Virus record (IMG/VR): IMGVR_UViG_3300011445_000481
Span: 1-30,664 of that record
Reading direction: 5' to 3' (one strand)
From: a virus
Length of the DNA: 30,664 bases
Shown: positions 271-18,698 of the stretch, piece by piece
Layout of the letters: each line of letters begins with the position of its first letter
How positions within the stretch are numbered: the first letter of the stretch is position 1
Made by a program: the position numbers and the translations under genes
Notes under the pieces: model-generated
What the model was told of the DNA's origin: nothing
The model's database searches: none
What the model saw: only the letters and a program-made list of their open reading frames with translations

Positions 271-1305
271 TCACTTGTAAAGTGCGACGCCATCGGCGCC
301 ACATTCCTGGTCGAATAGAGCCATCGCCTCGTCATCGAACGGATCAACCATTTCATCCGCGGGCACGCTTAGCGTGCTCCGCGAGCGGAAAGGGATGACC
401 GTAGTCTTAGCCTTGCCAACCTTGTACGTTTCGATGGCCTTGTCTATCTTCGTAACGGCCGGGTCCAGTTCCGCCGCGCGCTTAGCCTCTAGCCATGTCT
501 GCGTGGCGCTACCCTCGACCGGCTTGAACGTTGTCACCCCCGGCCGCGTTTCTGACACGGTGGCGACGTACTCGCGCACACCGTAGGCCCGCGGAGCTAG
601 CGCGATCTTGCGCTCGTCCACGATCTCACCTCGCACGACCTGTAGGTAGGTCCCCATGCCAACGGTGCGACGGTTGACAATCTTGCAACGGCCTTTCGTC
701 GCAAGTTGGATCGCCGATGTCGTTGACGCCATGATCAGATCGCCGGCCTTAGTCCACGCTAGCTCCATCGGTCGATCACGCAAGCGCGCGAGGTGTAGAA
801 CCTCTGGCGAGTTTGCGTCAAGCCACGCGATCGCCGCGTCGCCTTTCACAAGCTCCAGAAGCTGCGCAGGGTCATCCTCGCCGAACGCGTTCGGACCGTA
901 CGCGAGCAGAGCCGCTAACGCCTCTGAGTCAACCTGGCCGCGACGCTCGCACTCCAGAAGCGCGAATAGCTCATCATCGTTGCTCAGCACGCCGTTATGG
1001 ACCAACGCGATCCCTGGCGCGATCACCGGGTGATTGTTCTCTTCGTCGGTGGGCGAGCCCTGGGTCGCCCATCTGGTGTGAACGATCGCGGTCCTCATCC
1101 ACCGCTGTAGCGGAGCTTGATCAACCGCGTACATCGCGGGTTCATCCCACTTCCAATACTCTGGCCAACCGTGCTCGCCGATCCACGCGAACCCGGTAGC
1201 GTCCCAACCGCGCTCCTGTAGTCCGGTAGCGAGATCACCTAGGACTAGGTCCGCCCTGGTGATGATTGATCCGTCCGCCCGTGATAGGGCGCCTATTCCG
1301 CACAT
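271..1305 (-). CDS. Class II glutamine amidotransferase-like protein
   Basis: 344 residues. The protein begins Met-Cys-Gly-Ile-Gly, so after Met removal Cys2 becomes the N-terminal nucleophile typical of class II (Ntn-type) glutaminase domains, which release ammonia from glutamine. Other family signatures are HTRWAT (about 76-81), NHP (91-93) and HNG (103-105), matching the glutamine-binding and oxyanion-hole motifs of GlmS/PurF/AsnB-type domains. The last 150 residues show no synthetase or sugar-isomerase domain, so the acceptor enzyme must be separate; the amidoligase gene 12 bases upstream is the natural partner. A strong GGAGGG site precedes the ATG. The family assignment is firm. The substrate and the partnership are inferred from adjacency. 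Confidence 0.9.
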   Translation of the reverse strand: MCGIGALSRADGSIITRADLVLGDLATGLQERGWDATGFAWIGEHGWPEYWKWDEPAMYAVDQAPLQRWMRTAIVHTRWATQGSPTDEENNHPVIAPGIALVHNGVLSNDDELFALLECERRGQVDSEALAALLAYGPNAFGEDDPAQLLELVKGDAAIAWLDANSPEVLHLARLRDRPMELAWTKAGDLIMASTTSAIQLATKGRCKIVNRRTVGMGTYLQVVRGEIVDERKIALAPRAYGVREYVATVSETRPGVTTFKPVEGSATQTWLEAKRAAELDPAVTKIDKAIETYKVGKAKTTVIPFRSRSTLSVPADEMVDPFDDEAMALFDQECGADGVALYK

Positions 1306-1317
1306 ATTCCCTCCGTT

Positions 1318-2670
1318 CTAGACCGCGATACCTAGATCGCGCTGTCTGTCTGTCGTTGCGTGGCGTCGGAATGCCACGCTGGTTGCGTCCGTGATCAATT
1401 CGTGGTCGACCAACACGGTGAGCATGTCGTCAACATGATCACTGGTCGGTATCGGCAATTCGCGCCGTGCGTACTCGACTATTGCCTGAGTAACGCGTAC
1501 CCACGGATCGACCTTAGCGTAACTCAGTGTATGGCCTAACCCGCGGAATTCCACTGTGCCATAGGTCATAACCGGTTCAAAGTTGATCGACCAGTAACGA
1601 CCATGAGGCACAAAGCCGCGACCATCGGAACGACGCGGAGTCAGGGATTCCGCCTCCAACCAATCCCACTCATACTGGCCGAGTATTGACGCTCCACACG
1701 TATTCCCACCGCGCCAACGGTGGGCGGGAACGAATGCCATAACCGGACGCTCCCACACGCGTAGAACGCGGACCAGGTGCCGAATCTGCTCGCGCGTGAA
1801 ATCGGTCACGTCATGATGAACGTGCATACCGACGTTATCGGCGGTACTGCCACCGTTGTCTTTGACAGCGTCAAGCGCTATCTTGACCTGCTGTAGTCCG
1901 GTCTCGGTGCGCATCGGAGGTGAGACGAATTCGCCACCCGACACGGTAGAATCTGTCGTCATCTTCCACCAACGGAGCGTGTTGTGGTTGTAACGTTCCA
2001 CGCGCGCTTGCAAACCCTGGTCGCGGCACGCTTGCGCGATCGCTTCTTGCATGTCGTCTACGTAGAGGTCGCAATCGTTAGACCGATTGAATTCGATTTC
2101 AATCCCGAATCGCCGATTGATCAGACCGGGCGCGACGCGTGGCAGCACCATACCGTGCCGTTTGCGCGCGCGGTACGCGGCCCACCGTGCCAGCGAGTAC
2201 CGACCTGCTGTAGTGGGAGGTAGGCCCATCGTCCTGGCTACTTCGTTCCACGTGTAGCCCTGCTGGCGGAGATCGAGCGCGCGATCCTCGTCCTGCTCGC
2301 TTAGTTGACGATGGGAGGTGCGTGGCGTCGTTAACGGCGTGAATCTCTCATCCACGATCCAACTAAACGGCGAAGGGGCCTGCTCAGCGCTCCGCCGGCA
2401 CTCCGCGCAGTGACACGGACCCCACGGCGCTCCCCGCGTGACTGCCACGCGGTGCACGTTCTCGCGGTGGGCCGTCTCGGTGTAGACGTAGCCACGATTC
2501 GCTAGGTCGTGCGCTAGTACGTCTCGACCGGCGATGGCTTCGCAATAATCGACAAAGCGAGCGCCGATAGTGATCGGACTGAGCATCCCGTCGATCGGCT
2601 CGCCCCCGTCCCACGACAGCACGTCGCCGCGGCGGAGATCCGACCAGGCCACATCAGTCAGTCGAGGCAT
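1318..2670 (-). CDS. Putative amidoligase (glutamine synthetase-like fold) with internal HTH-like segment
   Basis: 450 residues. The C-terminal half carries the conserved pattern of the Amidoligase_2 / COOH-NH2 ligase family: RFGIEIEF (188-194, paired acidic residues), TDSTVSGGEFVSPP (239-252), a GMHVHHD histidine cluster (281-287), YWSINFEP (359-366) and TVEFRGLGHTL (372-382). Such enzymes are predicted to join a carboxylate to an amine using ATP. Residues 122-163 (LSEQDEDRALDLRQQGYTWN, then EVARTMGLPP) resemble a helix-turn-helix, and residues 86-91 form a small Cys-rich CHCAEC motif. The N-terminal 120 residues are not recognised. The start overlaps the end of the upstream gene by 13 bases and has a GGGGGTGG site. 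With the downstream glutaminase it may form an amide-modification system for peptide, cell wall, protein or nucleotide; the substrate is unknown. Confidence 0.85.
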   Translation of the reverse strand: MPRLTDVAWSDLRRGDVLSWDGGEPIDGMLSPITIGARFVDYCEAIAGRDVLAHDLANRGYVYTETAHRENVHRVAVTRGAPWGPCHCAECRRSAEQAPSPFSWIVDERFTPLTTPRTSHRQLSEQDEDRALDLRQQGYTWNEVARTMGLPPTTAGRYSLARWAAYRARKRHGMVLPRVAPGLINRRFGIEIEFNRSNDCDLYVDDMQEAIAQACRDQGLQARVERYNHNTLRWWKMTTDSTVSGGEFVSPPMRTETGLQQVKIALDAVKDNGGSTADNVGMHVHHDVTDFTREQIRHLVRVLRVWERPVMAFVPAHRWRGGNTCGASILGQYEWDWLEAESLTPRRSDGRGFVPHGRYWSINFEPVMTYGTVEFRGLGHTLSYAKVDPWVRVTQAIVEYARRELPIPTSDHVDDMLTVLVDHELITDATSVAFRRHATTDRQRDLGIAV

Positions 2671-2834
2671 GACAGCGCCACCCCCGTGTAGTCGGGATTC
2701 GACCAGCGCGATTCGCGCCGTTCATCGATCGTGCGAGAGTCCAGCGTCAAGCGCTGGACCGCGTACGCACCGCGACCCGCGCGCCATTCGGCGAGCGTAA
2801 AAGTGTCGTACGTGGCAAGGGCGTCAATGCTCAT
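2658..2834 (-). CDS. Small hypothetical protein (58 aa)
   Basis: I place the start at ATG 2834 (MSIDALATYDTFTLAEWRAG) because it overlaps the upstream stop codon as ATGA, the junction style of this operon. A longer in-frame start at 2885 would lie deep in the upstream gene. The product is 58 residues, soluble, with no Cys motif apart from one C-terminal Cys and no membrane segment. Its end overlaps the amidoligase start by 13 bases, implying translational coupling. No family is recognised. Confidence 0.65.
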   Translation of the reverse strand: MSIDALATYDTFTLAEWRAGRGAYAVQRLTLDSRTIDERRESRWSNPDYTGVALSCLD

Positions 2835-3031
2835 CGCGTGACTCCGTCGATCCATTGGATCTCCGCGCGTGCCAGGTCGATCCACTGTTGCGCTTCATCA
2901 ACTACCGCTTGAGCAGAGTCGCGCGCCGTTTCCCACTTGGCGACTACCGCTTGAGCAGAGTCGCGCGCCGTTTCCCACTTGGCGACTTGGCGTTCCCAGT
3001 AGGCGCGATCGTCGTTCAGTGACCGACTCAT
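2831..3031 (-). CDS. Small helical protein with internal 14-residue tandem repeat
   Basis: 66 residues, starting MSRSLNDDRAYWERQ. The centre holds two exact copies of a 14-residue unit (VAKWETARDSAQAV) and ends in a Trp/Glu/Ala-rich helix, so a short coiled coil is likely. The repeat is encoded by a perfect 42-bp tandem duplication at 2901-2984. The gene overlaps both neighbours through ATGA junctions, which supports it being real. No function is recognised. Without the extra repeat it would be about 52 residues. Confidence 0.7.
   Translation of the reverse strand: MSRSLNDDRAYWERQVAKWETARDSAQAVVAKWETARDSAQAVVDEAQQWIDLARAEIQWIDGVTR
2901..2984. repeat. Perfect 42-bp tandem duplication inside a small gene
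   Basis: Positions 2901-2942 and 2943-2984 are identical over all 42 bases (both begin ACTACCGCTTGAGCAG and end CCCACTTGGCG). The unit is 14 codons, so it preserves the frame. A third partial copy, ACTTGGCG, follows. The lack of any difference between copies suggests recent slippage or unequal recombination. Confidence 0.95.
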
Positions 3032-3207
3032 CGCGCGCCCTGCAAGATCTCACCCGCGAGTGGGTGGAAATCGGTCACCGTCGCGTGGAAGTCCGACCAA
3101 CGATGCTGATCGATCCATGCCGCTTCAAGGTCGCGCTCCAGACGCTCCGCGGCCGCGCGGTCGTTCTCATCCGCGAGCCATGCCTCAAGGTCATCGAACC
3201 TGCTCAC
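3028..3207 (-). CDS. Small acidic hypothetical protein, GTG start, first gene of leftward operon
   Basis: This 59-residue frame starts with GTG at 3207, seven bases after a canonical GGAGG, and reads (M)SRFDDLEAWLADENDR onward to ...ILQGAR. Its TGA overlaps the ATG of the next gene as ATGA. An ATG-only search for genes would miss it. The product is acidic and helical, rich in Asp/Glu/Ala with two Trp, and has no membrane segment or known motif. It is probably the first gene of the leftward operon, since upstream there is only the noncoding hairpin region. Confidence 0.7.
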   Translation of the reverse strand: MSRFDDLEAWLADENDRAAAERLERDLEAAWIDQHRWSDFHATVTDFHPLAGEILQGAR

Positions 3208-3230
3208 CGTCTCACCTCCGGTCTTGTGCC

Positions 3231-3262
3231 GGTCTCATACCGACACTCACACGGTCTCATAC
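3231..3262. promoter_or_regulatory. Pair of GGTCTCATAC direct repeats upstream of leftward operon
   Basis: Two exact copies of GGTCTCATAC (3231-3240 and 3253-3262) lie 22 bases apart start to start, about two helical turns. They closely resemble the GTCTGATAC half-elements of the sites at 4405, 8741 and 30272, which are about one turn apart. Their location just upstream of the GTG-start gene suggests a regulatory role. Orientation is opposite to that gene, so they may instead drive rightward transcription into the hairpin region or bind a regulator. Confidence 0.45.
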
Positions 3263-3311
3263 GCGGGCGAGACTGTCAAGCGACCGCGCGCGAATAGCGC
3301 GAGAAACGCAA

Positions 3312-3331
3312 GTGAACGTGCACACGTTCAC
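3312..3331. repeat. Palindrome GTGAACGTG-CA-CACGTTCAC
   Basis: A perfect 9-bp inverted repeat around a 2-base centre. The half-site GTGAACG recurs at 3561-3566 within the strongest dyad, so it may be an operator for a dimeric DNA-binding protein rather than an RNA hairpin (a 2-base loop cannot close). Confidence 0.6.
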
Positions 3332-3551
3332 AAGGATCTGAGCTTGCGCGCGCGATGTGAGAAATTTGAAAGATTCGCGCGCGAGCGTGGCGCGCTCGAC
3401 GTGCGCGACGCACGCACGTGCGTCGCTAGGTTGCGTGCGTGCGTCGCACGCTGAGCTAGAAGCTGCGCTTGCTAGCGCAAGCTCCGCTACGCGGCTACCA
3501 TGACGAGAAGCAACCTAAGGTTGCGGATCGTCACTCCGACGGTGGTGCGAG

Positions 3552-3578
3552 AATGTTGAGTGAACGTCACTCAACATT
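3552..3578. repeat. 12-bp perfect dyad with 3-base loop
   Basis: AATGTTGAGTGA pairs perfectly with TCACTCAACATT around ACG. It is AT-richer than its surroundings. An overlapping dyad, TGAACG (3561-3566) with CGTTCA (3581-3586), shares the sequence, so alternative folds or two operator sites are possible. Confidence 0.7.
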
Positions 3579-3640
3579 GAGCGTTCATTGTGTTGGTACA
3601 AACGAACGCACGCGCGCGTGCGAAATTTGTATGACGCGAG

Positions 3641-3666
3641 CGAGCGAGCGAAGCGAGCGAGCGAGC
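3641..3666. repeat. GCGA/GAGC short tandem repeat
   Basis: The segment is a run of GAGC/GCGA tetranucleotides interrupted by one AAGC unit, giving two near-identical halves. Low-complexity repeats of this kind arise by slippage. It lies between two hairpins of the noncoding array. Confidence 0.6.
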
Positions 3667-3713
3667 ATGCAGCGTGCACCACACGCTGCCAAGACAAGAG
3701 AACCAATCTTCTC

Positions 3714-3733
3714 GCAGGGGGTATACCCCCTGC
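3714..3733. repeat. 20-bp perfect palindrome
   Basis: GCAGGGGGTA joins directly to TACCCCCTGC with no spacer, so it is perfectly symmetrical as DNA. It opens the densest, almost contiguous series of hairpins running to 4008. Confidence 0.75.
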
Positions 3734-3778
3734 TCGACTAGCTCAGCACCCCCTAGACCGGGGGTGCTTCAAACCGCG

Positions 3779-3805
3779 CCCTCCCACCTCTAGGAGGTGG
3801 GAGGG
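3779..3805. repeat. 12-bp perfect hairpin with TAG loop
   Basis: CCCTCCCACCTC pairs with GAGGTGGGAGGG around TAG. The descending strand is purine-rich and is followed by AATATTT, which on the plus strand is only a weak T-tract. It could terminate plus-strand transcription, but the same array holds many similar stems without any T-tract. Confidence 0.7.
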
Positions 3806-3985
3806 AATATTTCAGGCACAGCTTTCTGGGTCGATCTCGGTAGAGATCGGCCAGCTCCGGCTGTCGCCTCCGCTGCCCGATGTTGGTGCCCGCCCTTGGG
3901 GGCGGGCGGATGCTCGCCTTGAAGGCGAGCAGGCTTGCTCGGCTTCCTCCGTACGCCTCGGGAGGAATCCTCCTGGCGGAGGATG

Positions 3986-4008
3986 CTCTTTCTTCCGCGA
4001 AGAAAGAG
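3986..4008. repeat. 10-bp perfect hairpin with CGC loop, end of array
   Basis: CTCTTTCTTC pairs with GAAGAAAGAG around CGC. It lies 65 bases past the stop of the minus-strand gene ending at 4073. As a terminator for that gene it would be followed by CATCC on the minus strand, not a T-tract, so this role is doubtful. Confidence 0.65.
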
Positions 4009-4072
4009 GGGGGCCTTCGTAACAATTCTGTCACGGAGGACCCAGAATCACTCCCTAGTACACCCCGAACTC

Positions 4073-4396
4073 TCAGCGGTACACGTCAGCTACGAGCTGG
4101 TAGTCCCTGGCCCCAGGTGAGCCCGTCCTCGTTCGAGGCACCTTCGATCCCTGCTCGCGGGAGATCTTGTACACGGTGTCAGCCTGCTTCCGGGTGACAC
4201 CTCGTCCGATCCCGTCACCGCAGTACTTCACGATCCTGCGGCAGTACTGGTTCTGGCCGGCGTACGCCGCCGCGATCGCGAGCACCTGCTTCCGCTCGGC
4301 CGAGTCCACGTAGTCGTCGCGGACTCTCGGGACCCAGGGCTCGCGCGAAGCAGCCCGTTGACGGGCTGCTTCCTTCTCCCAATCGAACTTGGCCAT
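4073..4396 (-). CDS. Small basic hypothetical protein (107 aa)
   Basis: Starts MAKFDWEKEAARQRAASREP and is rich in Arg, Lys, Gln and Tyr, with two Cys (about 52 and 59) and no membrane segment. The charged, helical composition could suit a nucleic-acid-binding or regulatory protein, but no family is recognised. The start has no convincing ribosome-binding site. A TANNNT-type -10 element (TACACT, minus strand 4410-4405) lies only 8 bases upstream of the ATG, so the mRNA may be leaderless, which is common in actinobacteria. It is transcribed away from the terminase gene. Codons 9-17 include a 10-bp perfect hairpin (4348-4371). Confidence 0.7.
   Translation of the reverse strand: MAKFDWEKEAARQRAASREPWVPRVRDDYVDSAERKQVLAIAAAYAGQNQYCRRIVKYCGDGIGRGVTRKQADTVYKISREQGSKVPRTRTGSPGARDYQLVADVYR
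4348..4371. repeat. 10-bp hairpin with TTGA loop inside coding region
   Basis: AAGCAGCCCG pairs with CGGGCTGCTT around TTGA, within the first 20 codons of the minus-strand gene. On the plus strand it is followed by a pyrimidine-rich TCCTTCTCCC. It resembles the members of the hairpin array to its left and could affect translation, or stop antisense transcription. Confidence 0.55.
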
Positions 4397-4404
4397 AGGT
4401 CTCT

Positions 4405-4429
4405 AGTGTATCACACCAGTATCAGACTC
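4405..4429 (-). promoter_or_regulatory. Paired GTCTGATAC/GTGTGATAC promoter-like element
   Basis: Read on the minus strand it is GAGTCTGATACTGG followed by TGTGATACACT. The second half ends in TGA-TACACT, an extended -10 of the TGN-TANNNT type. The same arrangement occurs at 8741-8765 and 30272-30296, each time directly ahead of a transcription unit. No good -35 hexamer lies 17 bp upstream. The upstream GTCTGATAC may replace it by binding a phage factor. It would serve the small leftward gene. Confidence 0.6.
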
Positions 4430-4443
4430 CACTCGGGGGAGTC
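4425..4443 (+). promoter_or_regulatory. Hairpin overlapping the terminase ribosome-binding site
   Basis: GACTCC (4425-4430) pairs with GGAGTC (4438-4443), and the loop plus the descending arm contain the GGGGGAG that is the only ribosome-binding sequence for the ATG at 4451. If transcribed, it could limit terminase translation. Confidence 0.4.
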
Positions 4444-4450
4444 TTACGAG

Positions 4451-13115: not shown

Positions 13116-13136
13116 TTCCTCGGGGTGTACTCAGAG

Positions 13137-16100
13137 ATGAGTGACACGTCCATCTTCACGCCGGAGGTGGCGCCGGTCATTTCCCGGTTTGACGCTACGC
13201 CCGACCTCGCGCGCGTGGATCGCAACATCCAACAGATCTCGGCTGTCGAGTCCACATGGTCCCTGCCCCCACTGCCCGACGAGTTCAAGGCCGACCTCGC
13301 CACGCTCGGCGACGTTGACGACGTTGGGCTCTTTGACTTCCTGACCGGGATCGAGGACGAGATTCGACAGGCCAGAGAGCCTGAGATTCCCCAGCTCCCG
13401 CCGATCCCGAACCGGGGCATCGATCAGGGCCGAATCATCGTTGCCTCACTCTCGGGTAATCCCGCCCCGCAGGTGGCCACCGAGGACGCCGTGATGCGCA
13501 CCAAGCTGGATATGATCCGGCACGGTCTCATCGACATGGACCCGTCGAAGGTCGATTCGTCGTGGAGCCCGGAGTTCAACCGCTTCCGCAACGATCTGGC
13601 GTTCGAGCGCTACGACGAACGGCTACGCGGCAGCCGCGAGGGCGCGATGCCGCTCTCGGGCGTCATGGACCTGTTGAACGACTTCACGTCGCCGTCCGGC
13701 CTCCTGTCCGCCGCCACCCAGCTCGACATGTTCTGGGACTTCGGCAACATCGGCAGCGAGATCCAGACCTGGGGCGACAAGTGGCGGAAGCTGGGCGAAG
13801 CCAAGAACCCGCTCGACTGGGGCGCGAAGCTGTGGGACGCCCTGACCGGGCCGATCGATGACATCCTGCTTCCGATCATCAACGTCGGCCTGATGTTCGC
13901 AGGCGTCGGCGCTGCGTTCAACACCGGCCGGATCGGGATGCTGATGGCGCGCGGCCGCAACATCGACATGATCGGTGACCTCTTCCGCACCTCGAAGCTG
14001 GCCAAGTTCACGGGCGGCGAGGCTGCCCTCAAGAACTTCACCGAACTCGGCCGTGCATCCTCGATGGCCACCCGTCTCGGGCGGGCTGACAACGCTCTAG
14101 CGCGAGGGGCCGGCGAGGCGCTGCGCAAGTGGCGCGCGGCGCTGCCGGTTGCGACGGCCAAGGGTCTCGTGCAGCCAGGGATGCGCCTCGGGTTCGTCTC
14201 GCAACTGGAAAGTCGGATGGGCTCCTACGAAGGCGGCGTCAGCCTGGCCGACGTCTCAGACCCGGTGAACGAACTCTCGGAACGTCTCTACGCTGCGGGC
14301 CAGACCCCGGTCATGTTCCTGCCAGAGGTGATGATCGCGCCGTACAACATCTTCCGTCCTGGGACGTTCTTCCGCAGGGCCGGCGAAGGCACCGGAGTGG
14401 CGTCGAAGCTTGGCAAGGGCGCACGGTTCGCTCTCGGTACCGCTCCCGGGCGCGCTGGGGTGGGGGCCACCATCGGCGCAGCGGCCGGCACGGCGACAGG
14501 CGATGACGGCGGAGACATAGCGAGAAGCGCTGCTATCGGCGCGGGCGCGGCGGCGATAGCACCCGCTGCGGGCCGCTTGCTGATGCGCGAGAACGTGCCC
14601 GGCGCGATCAAGGCTGCGGCCCTCTCGGCCGGCGCTGGAGCGCTTCTGGGCGACTCGCCTGATGACGCCGCCTGGGGGGCGGCGGCTGGTATCGGCCTGT
14701 TCGGCGTCTCGCCAACTGTTCGACGCATTCTGTCTGAACGCCTGCCGTCTATCAACCGGGCGATCAGGGCCAGCGGCCGGGGCCTCGACCTGATGTCGTT
14801 CCGCCCGATAGCGGACCAGCACGAGCCGGCGATGGCCGTCCACGTCGGCATGGTCGCCCATCTGGAGACCGGCATCACCACCGCCGCCACGGCGGAGGAG
14901 GCCGCTGCGATGCGAGGCCGTCTGAACCAGTGGAACACGAACGTTCGCATGTCGGGTGTGAAGCACGCCTTGGCGGAAGAGATGCGCCTCGCCACCGGAA
15001 ACGAGATCGCCGACGAGGTGGCTGCCGCCACGATCGTCTGGGCGAACACTCTGCTCGGCATCGACCATATCGCGAGCACGCAGGCGAAGAGCTTGACCGG
15101 CGGAGCGTGGCGTGGGCGTTGGCATTTCGCACGCAACAAGCTGGTCAACCAGATCCGCCCGTTCGCGGCCACCGATGACGTGGGAACCGACGCCTGGTTC
15201 GATGACCTGTCGATGGCGATGGCGATGACCGAAGCTGGGCAAGCGGCGTCTCGCCGCGAACTTCTGAGCCGTGCCGGCACGATCCGCGCCAGGCTCGTCG
15301 CTGATCCAGAGCAGGCCGCGCGCCTGGCGGCTGCACACGACAAGACTGCTGTCGAGACCCTGACTCAGCTCTGGCGTCCCGAGAACATGCCGAAGCCGGA
15401 CCCGAACGCTCCGTTCGACCCCGGCATGGAGGCGCCGGGCATACCGGGTATGGCCGGTCTCGGTGCTGAGGGCCGCGCTTTGCTCATGCAGAAGTACATG
15501 CCGCAGATCTGGGACAAGTTCGGCAACTGGCCGAAGTTCACGGCATCCACCGATTCAGTCCGCCGGTCGCGCGCGTCCGGCCTTCTCGATCCGGCCGAAC
15601 TCATCCCGGCCAAGACCCGCACCGGCCGGCGCTCACACATCACCGATGTGACCCGCCGCGACCGCGCCACGCGCGCGGTGAACGAGGCGATGACCGAATC
15701 CGCGCTGACAGAGAAGGGCGATGGCGTCTGGGACGCGGCGACGAGCGTCCTCGCCCCAGGCGTGCTGCCTGGCCGCATGACGATCGCCGACCTTGCCACC
15801 AAGTCTGGCCAGGAAATCTTCGAGCTGCGTGAAGAGGTCTCAGACCTCCTCGACGCCCGTAAGCACCTGGAGCGCCTGGACCGGCTGGCGGGCGGCGCCG
15901 GCCAGCGCGTCGAACGCCTCCTGCCCAGGTCTGTCGAGATGCCGCAGTCGCCGGACTGGCGGAGCGTCATGAGAGACGTGGGGATCGAGGATCTGACCCC
16001 GCAACAGATCGGCCACCTTGTTCGGGAGACGTTCCACCCGAGCACCGTTGACGAAGGCGGCAGAATGGTGAGCCGCTCGTTCCCTGGCGAGGACTCGATG

Positions 16101-18698
16101 ATCTACATCGTGAAGTTCGCCAAGCGCAAAGGTGTCTCCGTCGATCAGCTCACCTCGTACATCAACGACGAGGCGGTCAAGCTGGCCGACGACGCTGCCC
16201 GCTGGGACGAGTACGGCCTGCCTCTCTCGATGGCCGACGAGAACGGCCGCACCCTCACCGGGTTCGACGCGCTCAAGAAGCGCTCGAAGGATCTCCACGA
16301 ACGCTGGCAGTACGCCGCCAAGGAAGTCGATGTCAAGAAGCTGGCTGCCGACTACCGTGCCGCCGGCCGCATGGCCGACGCCGACGAAGTCGAAACCCTT
16401 GCTGCCGCCCTCCAGGCGGACAACTACAAGCTGATGCACGGCGTCGAGTTCGCGATGCCGGAGGATCTCGCCCTGGTACCTGGCGGCATCTGGGCGGACA
16501 TCAACCGCAAGCACATGAACTACGCCACGCTCGGCAACTTCTTCAAGGGCCGGCTGCCGGCCGAAGGCCACATCATCGCTGATCTGCGGCACCGTGCCGC
16601 GCTGGTGAGGGAGCTGTCCGAACTCAAGGATTCGACGTTGAGCGGAGTTCGCACCGACTCGGAGGAGGTCGACGGCATCCTCGACTTCCTCCAGCGCTGG
16701 GTGCGTGCGGACCAGGATCGCGTCGAGGATCTAACCCGCCACATGGATCTCGGTTCGGTCACCAGGCGCACCGTCCAGAGGGTCACCACATCGATGACCC
16801 CGGTGAACGTCGAGGACGTGCAGTCGCGCGGGAAAGAGATCCGCAACGCTCTGATGAAGGAGGCCGGCTTCTCTGACTCGGAGGCGCGCGCGATCGTCCG
16901 CGCCACGGCGAAGTTCCGCAACGGCACGTTCAAAGACATGGGCCTGTACGCGTTCGAGGCCAAGGCTCGCTCGGGCAACCAGGCGGCATGGGCGCTCAAG
17001 ACGCTTTCAGGCGCCAAGTACGGCGAAGGCTTCCTCGCGCGCGGTCGAGGGCAGCGCGCTCTTGGTGCCACCGCTGGTGCGATAGCTGGCAGCCAGGCCG
17101 AGGCCGAGGGTGACACGTTCGAGAACCGCCTCGCCAAGGTTGTGCTCGGCGGCGCAGCCGGCGCGGCGGTGGGAACCGTAGCCCCGAACGTCCTCAAGAA
17201 GGTCGCCGACCCGCTGGCCAGCGCGGCTCGCGACTGGCGCTACGGCTACCTCGCCGACAACCTGGCCCGCGCGCGTGACTCACTGCGCTTCACAATCTCG
17301 CCGATCTTCGATGCATCTCGGTACACGGAAGGTATGATGCTCGCCCAGACGGGCGCGCCGATGCGCTACACGCGCGAGGTGAAGGACGCCGCCGGGCAAG
17401 TCGTCCACAAGGTCGGCGATCGGGTGATCCTGCCGGGGAATATGACACCCCGCGCGCTCAAGAAGAAGATCGGCGTTGAGGCGTACGAGCGCCGCATCGG
17501 CCAGTTCCAGAAGTTCTCCCGTGACCGCCAGGACTTCGACCCGGAGGCGCTCGACTCGACCGGCCGTTGGTTCAAGCAGGTCGGGATTCTGGGCTTCTCG
17601 CCTGTGGACTGGATGGGCACCGCTTTCGCCCGACTCATGGGTGAAGGGTTCAACGCCGACGAGGCATACGACGCCACCCGTCGTATGTATACCTACGCCA
17701 CCGGCAAAGGTGTCGGTCGCGCGCGGTCGGCTGCCGAGATGTCGGTGAACTTCATGTTCTTCCCCTTCTCATTCCAGAAGAAGGCGATGAGCCACCTCGC
17801 CAAGTGGATGAACGACGACCTCGGTCGTTCGATCATGCTCCACGACGCGTTCAAGACGTACGAGCTGCTCGATGAGCAGTTCAACCTGGAGGACCGCTGG
17901 CGGGACTACTTCCCGTGGATTCAGCAGCTCCAGCGGCTCAACCTGTTCGCGTACGGCCTGTCGATGGGACGCTTCGGCGGCATCAACTCGCAGATGTTCG
18001 AGACCGGCGGGAAGCTGGCCTGGAACATGTTCGTCCCGGTCGGCATGAAGATTGAGACCGACAACGCCGAGGAAGTCAAGGCGCTCACCCGCAACCTGCT
18101 GCCGGTGCTCAACGACATCAACTGGATGTCACGCAACCTGCACGAGCAGGCCAACGTGATCAGCTCGCCGGCCCACGTAACGCGCGCGTCCGAGCGCAGC
18201 AAGGGCTGGGAGGAGTGGAACCAGTTCAAGGCCGACTTCGACGCCCAGCTCCGTGAGCGTGGCTACACGCTGGAGGACATCCACAACAAGCCGTGGCTGA
18301 GCGACGCGCTCGCGTTCTATGAGGACAAGCGGACCGAGCTGCAACGCAAGTACCCGGCGTGGTGGGAGTCCCGCAACGAGACGATCGGCAACATCATGGC
18401 GGAGGAGCAGGAGCGCAACGACGCCATCGACCGCTTCGCCACTGACACGCGCGCTGGGATCGCGCCGTCGATGGACGACGCCATGATCAACGAGTTCGAG
18501 ACGGTGCTCGCCGAGATCAAGGATCGCTTGCGGCTCACGGCCGGGATCACCTCATTGGAGGACGCGCCGCCCGAGGTGATGGACATGATCCGCAAGATGG
18601 CGGTGGGCTTCGCCCAGCAGAATCCGCGGTGGGTGTCGATCTGGGAGCGGTTCTACCTGAAATCGTTTGGACCCCTTACTGTGGAACGTCGGCTCTGA
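13137..18698 (+). CDS. Giant probable internal virion / ejection protein (1853 aa)
   Basis: ATG 13137 lies ten bases after GGGGTG; the frame opens at a GTG at 13125. The protein is mostly charged helix, interrupted by hydrophobic or Gly/Ala-rich segments at about 240-262 (ILLPIINVGLMFAGVGAAF), 435-500 (GVGATIGAAAGTATGDDGGD) and 1305-1355 (GGAAGAAVGTVAPN), which look able to enter membranes. A late region reads FMFFPFSFQKKAMSHLAKWM. Giant proteins of this kind near virion transglycosylases often are ejected with DNA or line the channel through the envelope. A tape measure is the alternative, but no tail-assembly frameshift pair is seen. The extreme C-terminus (YLKSFGPLTVERRL) is repeated at the end of the following HNH gene. 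Confidence 0.8.
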   Translation: MSDTSIFTPEVAPVISRFDATPDLARVDRNIQQISAVESTWSLPPLPDEFKADLATLGDVDDVGLFDFLTGIEDEIRQAREPEIPQLPPIPNRGIDQGRIIVASLSGNPAPQVATEDAVMRTKLDMIRHGLIDMDPSKVDSSWSPEFNRFRNDLAFERYDERLRGSREGAMPLSGVMDLLNDFTSPSGLLSAATQLDMFWDFGNIGSEIQTWGDKWRKLGEAKNPLDWGAKLWDALTGPIDDILLPIINVGLMFAGVGAAFNTGRIGMLMARGRNIDMIGDLFRTSKLAKFTGGEAALKNFTELGRASSMATRLGRADNALARGAGEALRKWRAALPVATAKGLVQPGMRLGFVSQLESRMGSYEGGVSLADVSDPVNELSERLYAAGQTPVMFLPEVMIAPYNIFRPGTFFRRAGEGTGVASKLGKGARFALGTAPGRAGVGATIGAAAGTATGDDGGDIARSAAIGAGAAAIAPAAGRLLMRENVPGAIKAAALSAGAGALLGDSPDDAAWGAAAGIGLFGVSPTVRRILSERLPSINRAIRASGRGLDLMSFRPIADQHEPAMAVHVGMVAHLETGITTAATAEEAAAMRGRLNQWNTNVRMSGVKHALAEEMRLATGNEIADEVAAATIVWANTLLGIDHIASTQAKSLTGGAWRGRWHFARNKLVNQIRPFAATDDVGTDAWFDDLSMAMAMTEAGQAASRRELLSRAGTIRARLVADPEQAARLAAAHDKTAVETLTQLWRPENMPKPDPNAPFDPGMEAPGIPGMAGLGAEGRALLMQKYMPQIWDKFGNWPKFTASTDSVRRSRASGLLDPAELIPAKTRTGRRSHITDVTRRDRATRAVNEAMTESALTEKGDGVWDAATSVLAPGVLPGRMTIADLATKSGQEIFELREEVSDLLDARKHLERLDRLAGGAGQRVERLLPRSVEMPQSPDWRSVMRDVGIEDLTPQQIGHLVRETFHPSTVDEGGRMVSRSFPGEDSMIYIVKFAKRKGVSVDQLTSYINDEAVKLADDAARWDEYGLPLSMADENGRTLTGFDALKKRSKDLHERWQYAAKEVDVKKLAADYRAAGRMADADEVETLAAALQADNYKLMHGVEFAMPEDLALVPGGIWADINRKHMNYATLGNFFKGRLPAEGHIIADLRHRAALVRELSELKDSTLSGVRTDSEEVDGILDFLQRWVRADQDRVEDLTRHMDLGSVTRRTVQRVTTSMTPVNVEDVQSRGKEIRNALMKEAGFSDSEARAIVRATAKFRNGTFKDMGLYAFEAKARSGNQAAWALKTLSGAKYGEGFLARGRGQRALGATAGAIAGSQAEAEGDTFENRLAKVVLGGAAGAAVGTVAPNVLKKVADPLASAARDWRYGYLADNLARARDSLRFTISPIFDASRYTEGMMLAQTGAPMRYTREVKDAAGQVVHKVGDRVILPGNMTPRALKKKIGVEAYERRIGQFQKFSRDRQDFDPEALDSTGRWFKQVGILGFSPVDWMGTAFARLMGEGFNADEAYDATRRMYTYATGKGVGRARSAAEMSVNFMFFPFSFQKKAMSHLAKWMNDDLGRSIMLHDAFKTYELLDEQFNLEDRWRDYFPWIQQLQRLNLFAYGLSMGRFGGINSQMFETGGKLAWNMFVPVGMKIETDNAEEVKALTRNLLPVLNDINWMSRNLHEQANVISSPAHVTRASERSKGWEEWNQFKADFDAQLRERGYTLEDIHNKPWLSDALAFYEDKRTELQRKYPAWWESRNETIGNIMAEEQERNDAIDRFATDTRAGIAPSMDDAMINEFETVLAEIKDRLRLTAGITSLEDAPPEVMDMIRKMAVGFAQQNPRWVSIWERFYLKSFGPLTVERRL
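18654..18698 (+). repeat. Copy 1 of the YLKxFGPxTVERRL coding end
   Basis: The last 15 codons of the giant gene. Protein copy 2 at 19115-19159 shares 12 of 14 residues. Eleven of those 12 shared residues use a different synonymous codon; only the Tyr codon and the stop match. This copy uses AT-richer codons (AAA, TTT, GGA, CTT, ACT, GAA, CGT) unlike its surroundings. Confidence 0.9.

Follow-up and report, generated by a model that had tools for sequence, protein, structure and literature searches.

A virus record of 30,664 bases (IMG/VR record IMGVR_UViG_3300011445_000481; the whole stretch was analysed and is called the window here) carries a dense array of perfect inverted repeats at positions 3290–4020, shortly upstream of the gene for the terminase large subunit. 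The array is real and out of the ordinary, it does not belong to any known class of giant RNA, and a phage lineage preserves both this type of feature and its location. Distant relatives, though not all of them, also have noncoding DNA rich in hairpins immediately before terminase, where pairing ability is kept but sequence is not. No published description of hairpin arrays beside a phage terminase was found in the open-access literature.

The gene order of the window is as follows: leftward genes for a glutamine amidotransferase and an amidoligase, the array, and then rightward genes for terminase, portal, protease and further virion proteins. A major capsid protein and two tRNAs are also encoded. 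The features around the array are:

3034–3207, minus strand: small gene to the left of the array, 57 aa, with a GTG start and GGAGG upstream as read from the sequence; codon log-odds +0.22
3208–4072, no strand: noncoding interval containing the array, flanked by two leftward genes; defined by codon usage
3290–3700, no strand: left half of the array, with some nine perfect hairpins that are rich in GC, part of the sequence being low-complexity GCGC/GCGA
3714–4008, no strand: right half of the array, eight non-overlapping hairpins (nine with one that overlaps), near-contiguous
4073–4396, minus strand: gene between the array and terminase, 107 aa; codon log-odds +0.24
4347–4372, no strand: perfect hairpin apart from the array, with an 11-bp stem and a 4-base loop, some 80–100 bases upstream of the terminase start
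4424–4444, plus strand: hairpin immediately before the terminase start, with a 7-bp stem and a 7-base loop
4451–6565, plus strand: terminase large subunit (PHROG 38, E 4e-68), the anchor gene of our comparison

The 107-aa protein had no relative in viral contigs and no Pfam family above cut-off. At roughly the position of the hairpin at 4347–4372, many relatives also have a hairpin. Several other features of the window were recorded. The glutamine amidotransferase and amidoligase genes are adjacent (271–2670, minus strand), here in a phage; a perfect 42-base tandem duplication (2901–2984, 14 codons) lies within a small leftward ORF at 2831–3031; and a protein of 1857 aa (13125–18698, plus strand), with no Pfam or PHROG match, occupies the position of the 1648-aa gene 9 of Streptomyces phage Immanuel3.

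Counting perfect stems of 6 bp or longer with loops of 3–12, and allowing no overlaps, we found 17 within 3290–4020, against 2.3 ± 1.4 and at most 6 in 200 dinucleotide shuffles. With overlapping stems included, such as 3967–3984, which overlaps 3944–3967, the number was 18. The original prediction, made from the sequence, had spoken of at least 18 perfect inverted repeats in about 700 bases, nine of them between 3714 and 4008; both counts are borne out when overlaps are allowed, and the density is far above that of shuffled sequence. Ten stems of at least 8 bp were observed (0.19 expected from the shuffles) and six of at least 9 bp (0.04 expected). Hairpins cover 344 of the 731 bases of the array and 171 of the 295 bases of its right half, where stems are 7–12 bp long and loops are mainly 3–6 bases. 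Folding z-scores were −6.0 (plus strand) and −4.5 (minus strand) for the left half, and −8.3 and −10.3, respectively, for the right half. The array is also the densest 700 bp of the window, with 12 stems of at least 7 bp (106 bp of stem); the next best 700 bp has 3 (28 bp), a lead of almost fourfold in stem bases. Shuffles of the whole window gave no more than 4 such stems (30 bp) per 700 bp, and the best 700 bp of the entire phiC31 genome contains only 4 (41 bp).

The interval 3208–4072 is noncoding as judged by codon usage, and all ORFs tested within the array region had negative scores (−0.16 to −0.22 per codon). No direct-repeat family linking the array hairpins was found, and their sequences are mutually unrelated; a CRISPR array and REP/BIME repeats were ruled out for lack of a repeated sequence unit. 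Thus, the earlier statements that each hairpin has its own sequence and that the region is neither CRISPR nor coding hold. The accompanying claim that T-tracts are absent is true of most stems but not strictly, as five terminator-like matches occur in the array where 1.2 are expected.

The only named phages related by portal protein were 29 Streptomyces phage records (Beephvirinae) and two 'ct2KA10' records, at 24–28% identity. One of the latter is Planktophila phage LanE43AprF5 (PMC10202952). The gene order of the window is similar to that of Immanuel3, and with its homologous terminase and portal the contig falls into the Beephvirinae/Planktophila-phage lineage. Because its portal relatives are Streptomyces and Planktophila phages and its gene order is like that of Immanuel3, its host is probably an actinobacterium. 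In DNA searches of public phages, neither 8 kb of the window nor the array by itself matched any named phage, and we found no homolog of this array sequence. No relatives were recovered with the major capsid protein as query, nor with terminase in bacterial genomes.

Using terminase and portal profiles, we gathered approximately 160 further contigs. When these were ranked by their best hairpin window, many had a hotspot directly upstream of terminase. In 46 terminase-anchored contigs, stems of at least 7 bp occurred at 5–14 times the shuffled frequency from about −1750 to +250 of the terminase start, whereas from +500 on, within the terminase gene, the frequency was about that of shuffles. Among AT-rich relatives, noncoding DNA abutting terminase had 4.66 such stems per kb (0.52 after shuffling), compared with 2.95 in other noncoding DNA 0.4–2.5 kb upstream and 1.65 in noncoding DNA farther away. 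In three compact contigs of about 40 kb (G003, G005 and G007) the stretch upstream of terminase is the longest noncoding stretch, and in G003, G004 and G005 it coincides with or adjoins the 700 bp richest in hairpins. The arrays of L134 and L163 are AT-rich and, unlike in the window, no leftward gene separates them from terminase. Stems of at least 7 bp are scarce in some relatives: the isolate Planktophila phage F5 possesses the noncoding stretch but only 2 of them in 1189 bp, and the marine contigs L091–L099, the closest to the window in portal identity, likewise contain few at this position. ARAGORN detected no tRNAs in the relatives, which rules out tRNAs as the origin of their structure.

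Left contig ends cluster near the same place: 6 of 29 contigs of at least 25 kb begin no more than 1.5 kb upstream of terminase, against an expectation of about 1 for a 40 kb genome. Among IMG/VR relatives of at least 8 kb, 35 or 36 of 88 contigs have their left end 0–1.3 kb upstream of terminase, and several IMG/VR contigs end inside the terminase gene. This clustering may come from genome ends, or from failed assembly through hairpins or G/C runs.

Some local elements close to terminase were also noted. L134, L049, L015, L062, L029, L018 and others have a hairpin 20–90 bases before the terminase start, whose stem varies while a C-T-T-containing loop recurs on the terminase-sense strand; it is probably an element of the late transcript. 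Five contigs (L062, L076, L042, L050 and L051) have three tandem imperfect 13-base repeats (about TAACTGTCTGTAC), iteron-like, between the last hairpin and the terminase gene. In the last 300 bases of group c2 relatives, inspection by eye revealed apparent promoter boxes that face each other, and a hairpin where the late transcript presumably begins; these c2 elements may well act as RNA.

The idea that structure rather than sequence is conserved could be examined in DNA-homologous clusters of the relatives. Of double substitutions at paired positions, 59% restored Watson-Crick pairing, compared with 27–29% when the partner was slid by 1–3 bases, in agreement with this idea; one pair, for example, reads C-G, G-C and A-T across L065, L073 and L045. 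Upstream of terminase, divergence per site was 0.098 in arms, 0.164 in loops and 0.132 in spacers, although the 20 pairs compared share members and these values are therefore not independent. Single hairpins are nevertheless gained and lost. Among 111 hairpins followed between close relatives, 63 were unchanged, 14 were compensated or mixed (only 5 of the 111 showed purely compensatory change) and 34 were broken without compensation. Clusters of differences confined to one arm were found in 17 of 82 hairpins and in 152 of 592 control segments, i.e., without excess. Loops of 3–5 bases were over-represented relative to shuffles.

Hairpins were also seen in coding DNA. Genes of Immanuel3 contain 103 stems of at least 7 bp (21.7 after synonymous-codon shuffling) and those of Rowa contain 9 (12 after shuffling). 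Both Immanuel3 (L008) and JXY1 (L011) carry coding-gene hairpins, and these are quickly turned over between them. In Immanuel3 genes, the arms are not more conserved than the genome (divergence 0.216 and 0.213, respectively), yet double changes were compensated at a frequency of 0.58, against 0.25–0.33 with slid partners.

RNAs with a function should fold more stably on their own strand than on the complement, and their stems should accept G-U more readily than A-C. The excess folding stability of the window array was −0.129 kcal/mol/nt on either strand, about five times that of 16S rRNA, which as a control was asymmetric (−0.026 versus −0.011 kcal/mol/nt). Likewise, the last 900 bases before terminase in the relatives gave −13.77 and −13.82 per 300 nt on the two strands, whereas the E. 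coli rRNA control gave −3.06 and −0.47. There was no strand difference in hairpin energy, and in stems with one mismatch near terminase in the relatives, G-T and A-C departures were about equally frequent; this is a weaker test than folding because rRNA itself reaches only about 1.8 to 1. Farther upstream the relatives lean to the minus strand. Folding favors it from −1800 to −600 (p 2e-5), and at 0.6–1.5 kb upstream, stems of at least 8 bp with one mismatch have 30 A-C and 7 G-T departures on the plus strand, and GNRA loops number 18 on the minus strand versus 5. The lean is absent less than 600 bases from terminase, where the arrays of the relatives are densest. Searches of the window and relatives against Rfam at gathering and relaxed thresholds gave nothing credible; the best relaxed matches in the window were far under the gathering score, and a MIR7526 match in L134 was merely a long hairpin. 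Folding of whole-region RNA alignments was uninformative because the regions are too divergent.

These data bear on the suggestion of a large RNA in the style of GOLLD or ROOL (PMC12286853). Like these RNAs, the array is long, noncoding, highly structured and phage-borne, and its relatives include lake phages; unlike them, with their one conserved ornate fold, it consists of unrelated local hairpins with strand-equal structure. Since no covariance model of a giant phage RNA matched the window or its relatives at any threshold, since neither the folding of the array nor the G-T and A-C departures near it showed strand asymmetry, and since the hairpins are mostly simple and local, membership in a known giant RNA class, or a close analog of one, is very improbable. 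A leftward RNA of another kind is more plausible, given the minus-strand lean at −1800 to −600: the array, which in the window is flanked by two leftward genes, might be transcribed leftward and fold as a long leader, a trailer or an independent RNA of these genes. The lean in mismatches, GNRA loops and folding agrees with this. However, it vanishes within 600 bases of terminase and in the window array, it could stem from minus-strand mRNA structure and terminators in coding DNA, and no Rfam family matched; we consider such an RNA unlikely. Less likely still is a set of tandem intrinsic terminators with little or no U-tract that insulate leftward and rightward transcription from each other in both directions. 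GC-rich, short-loop stems at a transcription junction, able to function on either strand, and the surplus of terminator-like matches would fit, but T-tracts are missing at most stems, 17 terminators are hardly needed where operons diverge, and the AT-rich arrays of L134 and L163 would be left unexplained.

It is also possible, though somewhat doubtful, that the array has no function and is a mutational by-product: template switching at imperfect inverted repeats during phage replication would make and repair perfect hairpins, and these would accumulate in the single long noncoding stretch that is free of constraint. Such switching is known to make and maintain stems and can do so without selection (PMC8794818). 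Strand symmetry, the fast turnover of hairpins and the excess of 3–5-base loops would all be accounted for, and the stem-rich genes of Immanuel3 show compensated double changes with arms no more conserved than the genome. On the other hand, other noncoding DNA of the same genomes is far poorer in stems, the arms of stems before terminase have changed less than the loops and spacers, and one-arm difference clusters, the mark of templated events, are not commoner than in controls. Because of this concentration at one locus, the conserved arms and the lack of a one-arm excess, we rank a functional DNA element above a by-product.

Our preferred, still tentative explanation is that the inverted repeats form an array that acts at the DNA level, sits at the early/late junction and probably serves the initiation of replication or packaging. 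In an actinobacteriophage-like lineage the array would be the chief noncoding control region, placed between the leftward genes and the rightward packaging and structural genes that begin with terminase. The conserved property would be the fold-back ability of each strand, neither one sequence nor one RNA. In single-stranded or negatively supercoiled DNA the hairpins could form fold-backs or cruciforms, and these might mark, or help open, the start site of replication or DNA packaging. The data establish the array itself, its density beyond chance, the presence of similar stretches before terminase in relatives, re-formed pairing when both partners change, and equal folding of the two strands; together with the lower divergence of arms, these speak for the DNA element. 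From them we infer the DNA to be the working form and the initiation of replication or packaging to be its job; the link to these processes is suggested by the position beside terminase, the divergent-operon junction in the relatives and the clustering of contig ends nearby. It should be noted that we located neither an origin nor an initiator site nor a genome end, which counts against this assignment, and that the stem-poor F5 and L091–L099, the turnover of hairpins, the upstream minus-strand lean, the leftward gene before terminase and the failure to find a homolog of the window array all speak against the DNA element. Of the roles originally proposed, a putative locus for replication or packaging and a putative DNA-level element are still the stronger candidates.

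Known DNA hairpins offer partial parallels. The telomeres of Streptomyces linear replicons, which lie at the very ends and bear a terminal protein, carry several short-looped, GC-rich palindromes close together in noncoding DNA; the array has similar close-set GC-rich palindromes but is internal to the contig and beside terminase. Promoters of N4-type virion RNA polymerases are short DNA hairpins with 3-base loops that act as DNA and share sequence. The array resembles them in its short hairpins, but these share no sequence, and no virion RNA polymerase was recognized. Template-switch hairpins (PMC8794818) and the palindromes in mitochondrial coding sequences of Nematomorpha (PMC6649704) are, like the array, unrelated perfect inverted repeats that are strand-symmetric and have compensated changes; unlike them, the array is concentrated at one locus upstream of terminase, and the one-arm mark of templating was not found.

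The boldest form of the DNA-element explanation is that, in a lineage of actinobacteriophages, a rapidly renewed array of sequence-unrelated DNA hairpins serves as a structure-only cis element which starts replication or packaging and is recognized by its fold. This we regard as speculative and rather unlikely. Cis elements are normally recognized by sequence. If the proposal is true, this site would be read by structure, its hairpins being unrelated in sequence and quickly renewed, yet present in the same place across phages with approximately 25–30% protein identity, namely Streptomyces phages and phages of the Nanopelagicales, which are abundant in freshwater. If the array is instead neutral, it would illustrate clearly, in a natural setting, how mutation makes hairpins in viruses, and would caution against naming giant RNAs from folding energy alone.
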